Shown here: in pieces, positions 44,883-49,250 of the stretch
Position numbering within the stretch: the stretch's first letter is position 1
Layout: every line of letters starts with the position of its first letter
Assembly (NCBI GenBank): GCA_902615855.1
Contig: CACMQN010000001.1
Span: 1 to 64,000, forward strand
Source of the DNA: an uncultured Candidatus Actinomarina sp.
GTDB taxonomy: Bacteria > Actinomycetota > Acidimicrobiia > Actinomarinales > Actinomarinaceae
Direction: 5' to 3'
DNA: 64,000 nt
Notes under the pieces: model-generated
Seen by the model: the letters and a program-made list of their open reading frames with translations, nothing else
The model's database searches: none
What the model was told of the DNA's origin: nothing
Program-made: the position numbers and the translations under genes

Positions 44883-45854
44883 ATGAGTACGATTGCTGTT
44901 GATGCAATGGGTGGTGACTCTGCTCCTGAAGAAGTTGTAAAAGGAGCTATTCTTGCAAAAAAAGAAGGAGTCGATGTAATTCTTTCAGGTGACGAAAATC
45001 TTATTAAAAGCTATCTTGGTAATGAAAAAATACCCGTTATAAATTATCCACAAGTTATATCAATGGATGATGATCCTGCAAAAGCCATAAGATCAAATAA
45101 AGATTCCTCAATTATTGGAGCATTAAATTTAGTAAAGGAAAAAAAAGCTGACGCGGTATTTTCTGCAGGCTCAACAGGTGCAACACTTATTGGTGCAATT
45201 TCAGTATTAGGAAAAATTAAAGGTGTAACAAGACCTACTATTGCATCTGTATTACCAGGTAAAGAAAAAGAGGTAATATTGGTTGATTCAGGGGCAAACT
45301 TAGAAGTAAAGCCAAAAGTTCTATATCAATTTGCAATCATGGGTTCAAAATTATCAGAACTTTTATTCGATATCGAAAATCCAAGAATTGGACTTATCAA
45401 CAACGGTGAAGAAAGTTCAAAAGGAAGAGAATTAGAAAAAGCTACATTTAAACTTCTCAAATCATCACAATTAAATTTTATTGGAAATGTTGAAGGTAAA
45501 GATTTTGCAAATTCAAAAGTTGATGTTTTTGTTACAGATGGTTTTACAGGGAATGTTGTACTAAAAACTTTGCAAGGAGTTGCAAAATTACAGCAAGATC
45601 TTATTTCAAAATCTTTAAAAGAAAATTTATTCAAACCTCTGTTAATACCTGTAAAAAATGCAATATCACCTGTAAAAAGTATGCTTAATCCAAATTCAAC
45701 GAATGGATCTTATTTACTTGGTGTTAATGGACTTGTAATTATTGGCCATGGTTCTTCAAACTCTGAAGCTATTAAGAACGCATTATTGTTTACAAGTAGA
45801 GCTGTAGAAAAGCGATTCATCAACAAATTTACAGAAGTTTCAAGTGAATTATGA
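44883..45854 (+). CDS. plsX: Phosphate acyltransferase PlsX
   Basis: A 323-residue enzyme that converts acyl-ACP to acyl-phosphate for phospholipid synthesis. It has the N-terminal V-D-A-M-G-G-D-S-A-P, S-A-G-S-T-G-A, V-D-S-G-A-N and D-G-F-T-G-N-V signatures. The rpmF-plsX-rnc order is standard. Its stop overlaps the rnc ATG. Confidence 0.95.
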   Translation: MSTIAVDAMGGDSAPEEVVKGAILAKKEGVDVILSGDENLIKSYLGNEKIPVINYPQVISMDDDPAKAIRSNKDSSIIGALNLVKEKKADAVFSAGSTGATLIGAISVLGKIKGVTRPTIASVLPGKEKEVILVDSGANLEVKPKVLYQFAIMGSKLSELLFDIENPRIGLINNGEESSKGRELEKATFKLLKSSQLNFIGNVEGKDFANSKVDVFVTDGFTGNVVLKTLQGVAKLQQDLISKSLKENLFKPLLIPVKNAISPVKSMLNPNSTNGSYLLGVNGLVIIGHGSSNSEAIKNALLFTSRAVEKRFINKFTEVSSEL

Positions 45855-46534
45855 ATGTAAAGGATTTAAAAAAATTTGAACAAAATATTGGATACTCATT
45901 TAAAGATATTGAACATTTAAAAATAGCTCTTACTCATAAGTCTTATATTGATGAAGATCCAACTTCAAAAACCAATCAAAGATATGAATTCATCGGTGAT
46001 ACCATACTTGATTTCGATTTATCAATATTTCTATTTAACAATTATCCAAACTTAGATGAAGGCAGTCTTACAAAAATAAGATCTGGTGCTGTAGATCAAA
46101 ATGCTCTTGTTGAACTTGGGAAGAAGATTCAGATAGGTGATTACTTATTGTTAAGCAAAGCAGAAGATAGCACCGGTGGAAGAGATAAAAGTTCAATCAT
46201 TGAGGATGCTGTTGAAGCGTTAATTGCTGCAATTTATTTTGATGGGGGACTTAAAGAAGTAAATAATTTTGTTTCAAAATATATATATCCATTGATTGAA
46301 AATTTATCAAAAAATCCGGGAGAAAAAGACTACAAAACACGTCTTCAAGAATATTTTGCTAAAAAAGGTAAAAAAGTAAATTATGAAACTTTATCGAAGG
46401 GTCCAGATCATAACAAAGAATTTGAAGCTTCTGTTTTTCTTGAAAATAAAGTTATAGGAAAAGGTACTGGAAAATCGAAGAAAAATGCAGAACAAATGGC
46501 TGCAAAGAATGCATTTTCTGATATTAAGGAATAA
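45851..46534 (+). CDS. rnc: Ribonuclease III
   Basis: A 227-residue double-strand RNA endonuclease. The catalytic signature is R-Y-E-F-I-G-D-T-I-L-D (Glu and Asp metal ligands; Tyr replaces the usual Leu), with E-D-A-V-E-A-L-I-A-A-I-Y-F-D-G-G as the second acidic motif. A C-terminal dsRNA-binding domain (residues about 158-225) ends with the K-K-N-A-E-Q-M-A-A helix. It processes rRNA precursors. Confidence 0.94.
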   Translation: MNVKDLKKFEQNIGYSFKDIEHLKIALTHKSYIDEDPTSKTNQRYEFIGDTILDFDLSIFLFNNYPNLDEGSLTKIRSGAVDQNALVELGKKIQIGDYLLLSKAEDSTGGRDKSSIIEDAVEALIAAIYFDGGLKEVNNFVSKYIYPLIENLSKNPGEKDYKTRLQEYFAKKGKKVNYETLSKGPDHNKEFEASVFLENKVIGKGTGKSKKNAEQMAAKNAFSDIKE

Positions 46535-46601: not shown

Positions 46602-49250
46602 ATGCACTTAAAATCAATAGTTGCAAGTGGATTCAAGTCATTTGCTGAAAAAACTACAATAAATTTATCTGAATACACCAACGTAATTGTGGGTCCTAAT
46701 GGATCTGGAAAATCAAATATAGTTGACGCTATTTCATGGGTATTAGGTAATCAAAGTCCGGGTTCTCTAAGAACGAACAAAATGGAAGATGTAATTTTTG
46801 CAGGTACAGAGAAACTTGGAGAAAAAGGTTTTGCTGAAGTATATTTAGTCTTTGACCTAGGCGATAATAACAATTTCAATTCAAGTGAAGTATCTATTGG
46901 AAGAAAATTATACAGAGATGGTACTTCTGAATATTTCATGAATGGTCTAACTTGTAGGCTGCTTGATATTCAAGAATTTTTAAATGATGTGGGTATAGGA
47001 AAACAACAGCACATAATTATCTCTCAAGGACAAATTACAGAAATTCTGAATGCTAAGCCTGAAGACCATAGAATTACTATTGAAGAAGCATCTGGGATAC
47101 TTCCATATAAGTTAAAAAAAGACAAAGCATTAAAAAGAATAGAATCTGGGGAAAAAGAAATTAAAAGAGCAAAAGATGTTCTTCGTGAGATAAAAAAACA
47201 GATTGATCCATTAAGAAAACAGGCTGAACAAGCTCAGCTTCATAAGGAATTGTCTGAAGTTTTAAAATTTAACAAAACAAAACTTAATATTCTCCAATAT
47301 AGAAATTTCAATAAAAAGTATGATGATATCAAATCACAACTAGAAGAAGTAAACCGATTTATTAATGAACTTGAGTCTAAACTTGAAGATTTCAAATTAA
47401 GCAAGAACAAACTTAGAAAAGATTTTGGAGAAAATGTTTCTGTAAAATCTTTTCTTTCAAATGCAATTACTGAAGTAAACAAATACAGTGAAGAATTTAA
47501 GTCTATTTATCAAATTTCAACTGAAAGGCAATTGTCATTAGAAAGAATAAAAGAACAATCTACTAGCGAATTAAAAAGATACACAAATCAGATTTATCAA
47601 AACAACAACCAAATTTCACAATTGTCCAAACTGATAATTGATAAAAAAGAAATTGCTACAGTTAACTCAAAAAAGATTGAAAGTTTGAATCTTGAAATTG
47701 AAGATGTAAAAAGTAAACAATCATCTAGTTTGGAAGTAAATGAAGCTTTACTTAAAAATGAGATTAAGTTCTTAAAGAATGATCTATTATCAAAAACCGA
47801 CATACTTGATAAATTTACAGACAATTTAAATAATTGGATCAAAGATGAAAAAATTATTAATAAACACCTAATGAAGCATGATAAATTCCTTAATAGAAAA
47901 AAATTAAATTCTAGATCCTTTAATAAAGTAAAGATTCATACAGATAGTTTGTTACATAGAGAGATTACAGATCTAAGTATTCAACATGAAAATGCATTAC
48001 TTAATAAAAATGAAATACAAAAAAGTCTTGATGAGAAACTTTCTTTAATTAGTGAATATAGCAATTCTGATAAATTTAAACAGACTTTAAAAGATAGGGA
48101 GGATTCATTACTTACCGAAAAAGAATATTTAGAAAATGAAACTTCATCAATAAATGAACAACTTATTTCATCTACTGAAAAGATTAAATATCTTACAGAT
48201 GAAAATAAAAACCTTTCTAACAAGGTCAAAGAATTAAATTCAAATGAAAATTCTGAGGAGATAAATAATTATGAAGTTATAAATTCAAAAGCTTCACAAG
48301 CTTATAAGATTTTAAATGAACTCTCTTCTAATTTATCAGAGAGAAATCAAAAACTAGATGAAAACTATAGTGACAATGATGAGCAAATAAATGAAATTGA
48401 AGAAAATCTTGAAGATGTTTCAAATAGTTTATTTAATTACAAAGATAAAAAAAGTGACTTAATGGTTAAAGAATCAGAATATATGTCACAAAGAGCTCTT
48501 TATTACTCAAATTTAACAAACATAAGTGGTTTAAGTATTGATCAAATCAATGAATATGAAACTGGAAATGAGTCAATAAATGATATTGATAATATTATTT
48601 CAAAAACTGAAAACCAACTGGACGAACTTGGTACTGTAAATTACTTAGCCTCCGAAGATTTTGAATCTTTAAACACTAGATATGAAGATATATCAACAAA
48701 CATAGAGGAATTGAATACAACTAAAAAAGAACTTTTAAAATATATAAGCGAAATCGAAGAAGAAATTAAATTTAGAATTGAAAACTCATTCAACACTATT
48801 TCTGTAAATTTTGAAGAAGTTTTTGAAAAGCTTTTCCCTGGTGGTAAGGGATCTTTAACATTAACAAACCCTGAAAACTTACTTGAATCAGGCATAGAAA
48901 TAAGTGTTCAACCTAGAGGTAAGAAAGTGAAAAAATTGAGTTTACTTTCTGGAGGAGAACGATCATTAGCTGCAATTGCATTTTTATTCTCTGTATTTAA
49001 ATCTTTTCCAAGTCCATTTTACATACTAGATGAGGTTGAAGCTGCTTTAGATGACGCTAATTTACATAGAATGCTTAATTTACTTGAGTTCGTAAAGGAA
49101 GATGCACAGTTTTTAATTGTTACTCATCAACAGCAAACTATGCAGGCAGGTGATGTTCTTTATGGAGTAACTATGCAACCAGGATCTGGCTCAAGAGTAT
49201 TTACAAAAACTAAAAAAGATTTTGAAACTTTGATTACGAAAGGGGAGTAA
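46602..49250 (+). CDS. smc: Chromosome segregation SMC protein, apparently without hinge domain
   Basis: An 882-residue SMC ATPase, against about 1,150-1,200 normally. The N-terminal head has Walker A G-P-N-G-S-G-K-S (31-38) and the Q-loop (I-S-Q-G-Q). The C-terminal head has L-S-G-G-E (about 782-786), Walker B Y-I-L-D-E-V-E-A-A-L-D-D and the T-H-Q-Q-Q H-loop. The L-G-T-V-N motif before the C-head is kept. Between them lie about 560 residues of Lys/Glu/Asn/Ser-rich helix. There is no glycine from residue 277 to 642, where the Gly-rich globular hinge (dimerisation domain) should sit. The reading frame is continuous. The position after rnc is the usual one. Confidence 0.93.
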   Translation: MHLKSIVASGFKSFAEKTTINLSEYTNVIVGPNGSGKSNIVDAISWVLGNQSPGSLRTNKMEDVIFAGTEKLGEKGFAEVYLVFDLGDNNNFNSSEVSIGRKLYRDGTSEYFMNGLTCRLLDIQEFLNDVGIGKQQHIIISQGQITEILNAKPEDHRITIEEASGILPYKLKKDKALKRIESGEKEIKRAKDVLREIKKQIDPLRKQAEQAQLHKELSEVLKFNKTKLNILQYRNFNKKYDDIKSQLEEVNRFINELESKLEDFKLSKNKLRKDFGENVSVKSFLSNAITEVNKYSEEFKSIYQISTERQLSLERIKEQSTSELKRYTNQIYQNNNQISQLSKLIIDKKEIATVNSKKIESLNLEIEDVKSKQSSSLEVNEALLKNEIKFLKNDLLSKTDILDKFTDNLNNWIKDEKIINKHLMKHDKFLNRKKLNSRSFNKVKIHTDSLLHREITDLSIQHENALLNKNEIQKSLDEKLSLISEYSNSDKFKQTLKDREDSLLTEKEYLENETSSINEQLISSTEKIKYLTDENKNLSNKVKELNSNENSEEINNYEVINSKASQAYKILNELSSNLSERNQKLDENYSDNDEQINEIEENLEDVSNSLFNYKDKKSDLMVKESEYMSQRALYYSNLTNISGLSIDQINEYETGNESINDIDNIISKTENQLDELGTVNYLASEDFESLNTRYEDISTNIEELNTTKKELLKYISEIEEEIKFRIENSFNTISVNFEEVFEKLFPGGKGSLTLTNPENLLESGIEISVQPRGKKVKKLSLLSGGERSLAAIAFLFSVFKSFPSPFYILDEVEAALDDANLHRMLNLLEFVKEDAQFLIVTHQQQTMQAGDVLYGVTMQPGSGSRVFTKTKKDFETLITKGE

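Follow-up and report, generated by a model that had tools for sequence, protein, structure and literature searches.

A hinge-less SMC protein accompanied by ScpAB, ParB and parS in Candidatus Actinomarina

Hinge-less and hinge-substituted SMC proteins

In most models of SMC function, the hinge is an essential dimerisation and DNA-contact domain, as well as a candidate DNA gate. RecN combines an SMC-like head with a hinge-less coil, while Rad50/SbcC proteins consist of heads and a coil without an SMC hinge and bear a CXXC zinc hook at the apex. The hinge of Bacillus subtilis Smc can be replaced by the unrelated Rad50 zinc hook, with the engineered hinge-free chimera remaining functional, and B. 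subtilis Smc mutants that are unable to dimerise at the hinge are non-functional (PMC5344682).

Hinge-less SMC proteins forming an abundant clade in marine Actinobacteria have been reported from metagenomes by Sussfeld et al. (2025; PMC12153180), and hinge loss as such was therefore already known. In that report's account of the clade, the proteins are represented by AlphaFold models, contain no CXXC motif and do not co-occur with a normal SMC; they are annotated only to the class Actinomycetes and considered a possible unknown lineage or paralog. The string "Actinomarin" does not occur in the main text of the report, and its section on the hinge-less clade leaves ScpAB, ParB/parS and the gene neighbourhood aside (PMC12153180). 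SMC is likewise not mentioned in the literature searched on Actinomarinales and its sister order. Set against the published description, the Actinomarina proteins analysed here agree with the clade in their SMC heads, antiparallel coil, absence of hinge and CXXC motif, marine and actinobacterial origin, abundance and lack of an accompanying normal SMC (PMC12153180). Matched by description rather than by sequence, they almost certainly belong to the same clade. New are the identity of the lineage, the fixation of the hinge-less form across its order, its single-copy orthology, the set of partner genes and the anatomy of the apex. With Candidatus Actinomarina as the lineage behind the published orphan clade, a gene set for reconstitution becomes available.

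The smc gene and its encoded protein

The tiny bacteria of the lineage Candidatus Actinomarina are very abundant in the ocean. The window, namely the whole stretch of 64,000 nucleotides of contig CACMQN010000001.1 that was analysed, harbors an smc gene downstream of plsX and rnc, with the following features:

44883..45854, + strand: plsX, ancestral neighbour of smc
45851..46534, + strand: rnc (ribonuclease III), ancestral neighbour upstream of smc
46602..49250, + strand: smc, hinge-less chromosomal SMC of 882 aa (open reading frame; TIGR02168; orthologs throughout the order)
46602..47096, + strand: N-terminal ATPase half, residues 1-165 (invariant columns; Walker A GPNGSGKS at 31-38)
47100..47900, + strand: outgoing arm helix, residues 167-433 (AlphaFold2 helices 167-375 and 377-433; conservation)
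47901..47912, + strand: predicted apex turn replacing the hinge, residues 434-437 (both AlphaFold2 models)
47913..48767, + strand: returning arm, residues 438-722 (AlphaFold2 helices 438-487, 490-545, 549-641, 659-676 and 683-744; hydrophobic period ~3.5)
48768..49247, + strand: C-terminal ATPase half, residues 723-882 (LSGGE signature motif at 782-786; Walker B YILDE at 807-811)

The smc reading frame is single and uninterrupted, and both head halves align over their full length with solved bacterial SMC heads. The Walker A, signature and Walker B motifs of this ABC-type head are invariant in the alignment of the Actinomarina orthologs. Two readings in an earlier note on this DNA, made from the letters alone, are thereby borne out, namely that both ATPase heads are complete and that the frame is continuous over 882 residues. 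The protein exceeds the cut-off of the chromosomal SMC equivalog model TIGR02168 (629 bits; cut-off 567), while its score against the NCBIfam recN model falls far below the cut-off (49 bits versus 408). It further differs from RecN in its much longer coil and in the ScpAB partners encoded alongside it. Its head also scores far better as an SMC than as Rad50/SbcC, and a zinc hook was rejected, as the arms are devoid of cysteine in all 30 orthologs examined.

The plsX-rnc-smc neighbourhood also occurs in Acidimicrobiia with a hinge-bearing SMC and at least partly in Firmicutes. Furthermore, in a tree including two hinge-bearing Acidimicrobiia, the Actinomarina SMC heads branch with the Acidimicrobiia SMCs with a support of 100/100, and both lines of evidence point to vertical orthology. 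Each Actinomarina genome encodes one SMC. The other SMC_N matches listed for the 42 genomes of the order are short ABC ATPases (~230-330 aa), with no RecN- or SbcC-sized relative among the matches listed. Judged on these sequence comparisons, smc is the sole chromosomal SMC of Candidatus Actinomarina and a vertical ortholog of bacterial Smc. The dN/dS ratio is 0.01-0.02 in the heads and ~0.1 in the arms for the best-resolved pair (the window gene and L057), showing that the whole protein is under purifying selection. As a side observation, RecN, SbcC and RecF all seem to be absent from the order, as judged among the matches listed.

Absence of a hinge and anatomy of the apex

The Pfam hinge model (PF06470) has no match in the window SMC or anywhere in its own genome, nor in any of the order's 42 genomes; run on 14 control genomes, the search was positive in 10. 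A bespoke profile, built from the hinges of 12 Acidimicrobiia relatives, found nothing in the order at E-values up to 1 in a search that contained no positive-control genome, and profile-profile comparison of this profile with the Actinomarina SMCs returned a probability of 0.2%. A split or stand-alone hinge gene, which the earlier note had proposed to look for, was rejected on the same grounds, as neither PF06470 nor the Acidimicrobiia profile detects one in the 42 genomes. With no PF06470-type globular hinge at its apex, the protein is classified as an SMC ortholog that has lost its hinge rather than as a canonical SMC. It shares orthologous heads, neck and neighbourhood, as well as ScpA, ScpB, ParB and parS, with the bacterial Smc of Smc-ScpAB (B. 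subtilis; TIGR02168), but lacks the hinge and has arms that are on average ~70 residues shorter each. Relative to hinge-bearing SMCs, the protein lacks a hinge of ~170 residues and, in addition, ~140 residues of the two arms taken together. It differs from the engineered B. subtilis chimera in that the latter retains a dimerisation domain, whereas none is recognisable in the Actinomarina SMC.

The earlier note had proposed the loss of the hinge on account of a glycine-free run at residues 277-642. The run itself is exact (366 residues, flanked by Gly 276 and Gly 643), and Pro and Cys are both absent from the stretch between residues 216 and 660. Lack of glycine alone is, however, not diagnostic: the longest glycine-free runs in related Actinomarina SMCs vary from 113 to 366 residues, their arms containing scattered glycines, and in a normal SMC with a hinge, one arm can lack glycine over 288 residues. 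The exact length of the run is particular to the species group of the window. The loss of the hinge, upheld here, therefore rests on protein length, HMM searches and predicted structure.

Two AlphaFold2 predictions were made, one from an alignment of 36 Actinomarina sequences and one from an alignment of 52 sequences including hinge-bearing SMCs. Both single-chain models, which provide the structural check suggested in the earlier note, place a long helix up to residue 432/433, a turn at ~434-437 and a further helix from residue 438, with no globular domain at the apex. The pLDDT at the hairpin apex is ~80 or above. Overall confidence is middling (pTM 0.36 and 0.43), such that the path of the arms cannot be relied upon in detail. 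Foldseek comparison of the model returned SMC heads and arms as matches. The arm segments tested show a hydrophobic period of 3.5-3.6, with heptads persisting right up to the apex, and together with the models this indicates long antiparallel coiled-coil arms. With the boundaries set in this analysis, each arm comprises ~265-280 residues. As B. subtilis Smc is functional with arms of 253-267 and then again of ~321-373 residues (PMC5344682), the Actinomarina arm is close to a permitted length, but cannot be placed within one with certainty.

Conservation is highest in the heads and outgoing neck (0.83-0.89; heads 0.87-0.89), with neck residues 166-215 highly conserved, and drops to 0.40-0.44 in the arms and 0.29 at the apex. 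Conservation reaches its minimum at residues 421-460, a finding that speaks against a new conserved domain at the apex. Some orthologs carry a proline at the apex, at position 436, 441, 442 or 444. A conserved positive charge, as might be expected of a DNA-binding tip, was considered and rejected, as the net charge of the tip varies by species from -5 to +7. Near the tip, the ortholog alignment reveals two conspicuously conserved residues, R453 and E454. Their derivation from the hinge-exit motif of clostridial SMCs was also considered and dropped; the resemblance is suggestive only, and the motif is absent from the Acidimicrobiia relatives.

Distribution in the order and class

All 42 genomes of the order that were analysed, which belong to the one genus Candidatus Actinomarina, carry smc and none carries a hinge; the loss of the hinge is fixed in the order. 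An intact frame of ~880 aa is present in 37/42 genomes, while in the other genomes the gene is truncated by the end of a contig or, in the case of G025, probably split by a frameshift. The named relatives are uncultured Candidatus Actinomarina/OCS155, represented by single-cell and metagenome genomes. Thirty-six of the Actinomarina SMCs, with identities down to 50%, align with the window protein without insertions, the alignment having exactly 882 columns. The earlier note had dismissed a frameshift as the explanation for the short protein and had recommended comparison with related genomes; the single open frame and the equal protein length in assemblies obtained independently from single cells and metagenomes support that view, and as the short SMC is common across the order, no segment is missing from the assembly of the window.

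Two genomes call for separate mention. The smc gene of the single-cell genome G025 (L087; G025:C5:4796-7436) consists of two overlapping frames of 595 and 287 residues, probably due to a sequencing frameshift. The TMED189 metagenome bin G001 contains two different Actinomarina smc copies on contigs C3 and C24 (L086 and L077), as well as two parS/parB sites on separate contigs, and is probably a mixed bin.

Elsewhere in the class, PF06470 identified a hinge in 149 of the other 156 genomes. In six of the seven exceptions, the SMC genes are broken by contig ends or were not recovered. The seventh (G053) encodes an SMC frame of 1115 aa with an unaligned, glycine-rich middle region of the right size, which is most simply a divergent hinge. 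With these exceptions accounted for, the loss does not extend more widely in the class sample.

ScpAB, ParB and parS

The genes scpA and scpB, for which the earlier note had advised a search, are both present in the order and adjoin one another; of the 42 genomes, which are incomplete, 30 encode ScpA and 32 encode ScpB. Both partners of Smc are thus encoded in the same genome, with a divergent N-terminal segment in ScpA: the first ~29 positions of PF02616 are not recognisable in the Actinomarina ScpA proteins (L043-L054, with L046 being that of the window's own genome, G000:C3). The N-terminal sequence has been rewritten, yet is similar within the genus. The ScpA helix known from solved structures to bind to the neck of SMC is recognisable. 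The unrecognisable N-terminal segment suggests that binding of the kleisin to the neck may also be altered, and it is possible that this segment changed together with the loss of the hinge.

ParB is encoded in 40/42 genomes of the order. A pattern search allowing at most one mismatch located parS in 39/42 genomes, nearly always as one site, while the reversed pattern, used as a control, gave none. In the window's own genome the site is perfect (G000:C6:12959-12974) and lies ~0.9 kb from the parB match. Nearly every Actinomarina genome thus contains a single near-perfect parS in the vicinity of parB, representing a minimal ParB-parS system.

Possible mode of action without a hinge

We consider it fairly probable that the Actinomarina protein is part of a working Smc-ScpAB loader, in which ATP-engaged heads, ScpAB and contacts between the arms maintain the dimer. 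The ancestor of the order would have lost the hinge together with part of each arm, with the arm helices now joined by what is predicted to be a plain hairpin turn. The complex would still work as Smc-ScpAB, and ATP-dependent engagement of the heads would recruit it at the single ParB/parS site. Three weaker contacts may then hold the hinge-free dimer: the engaged heads, ScpAB as a bridge from the neck of one subunit to the other's head cap, and the arms packing side by side as a rod. A hinge gate would be impossible in such a complex, and the compartment between heads and arms would either be closed on top by arm contact only or form an open clamp. The exchange of the hinge for a zinc hook in B. 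subtilis (PMC5344682) lends this reading plausibility. Given that B. subtilis Smc loses its function when mutated such that it is unable to dimerise at the hinge (PMC5344682), Actinomarina must have compensated for the loss, or its complex works differently.

The main rival to this explanation, which we judge unlikely, is that the hairpin tip has itself become a new dimerisation site, with tips or tip-proximal coils pairing as a four-helix bundle or antiparallel coiled coil in the manner of the Rad50 zinc hook. That an unrelated dimeriser can stand in for the B. subtilis hinge (PMC5344682), that heptad periodicity reaches the apex, and that R453 and E454 are conserved near the tip are all consistent with such pairing, but the surrounding residues are the least conserved of the protein, the tip charge changes sign among species and the arms contain neither Cys nor CXXC. 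The absence of any conserved apex element, hinge or hook might point to an open, head-engaging clamp with ScpAB, resembling RecN in outline, with no dimer contact replacing the hinge and no closed SMC ring. Tiny genomes with a single parS may have little need of loop translocation over long distances. Retention of ScpA, ScpB, ParB and parS, and of long coiled arms under selection, nevertheless suggests that the whole loader is in use; we judge the clamp still less likely than tip pairing.

Dimerisation of the apex in trans by a separate protein appears very improbable. An unrelated, unrecognised partner could exist, but the 42 genomes contain no hinge-like sequence by Pfam or bespoke profile, and no evident candidate was seen beside smc or scpAB. 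The chance of an artefact is negligible: frameshift and assembly deletion are excluded by the single open frame and the order-wide equal length of independently assembled genes, and a paralog beside a normal SMC by the single-copy SMC and the lack of RecN- or SbcC-sized relatives among the matches listed.

Returning to the favoured reading of a loader held by heads, ScpAB and arms, we rate at somewhat below even the stronger proposition that a complete, selected Smc-ScpAB/ParB-parS system works in an abundant ocean bacterium with neither a hinge nor a dedicated apex dimeriser. If true, ParB-loaded SMC function would require neither a hinge gate nor a ring closed at the apex. The natural loss of the hinge, with ScpAB, ParB and parS retained, makes it testable whether the hinge is needed for loading and translocation or serves only as a convenient tether.

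Arm length

The constant length of the Actinomarina arms is not exceptional. An unusually frozen arm length was considered and rejected, as pairwise indels are equally low in hinge-bearing SMCs (median of one event versus two), and since hinge-bearing arms are about as free of indels, the constraint on length in Actinomarina is an ordinary one. Short arms also occur together with a hinge in the class: members of family f14 (e.g. L033, L039 and L042) encode SMC frames of only ~990-1020 aa with a clear hinge, and as such represent a naturally short-armed Smc.
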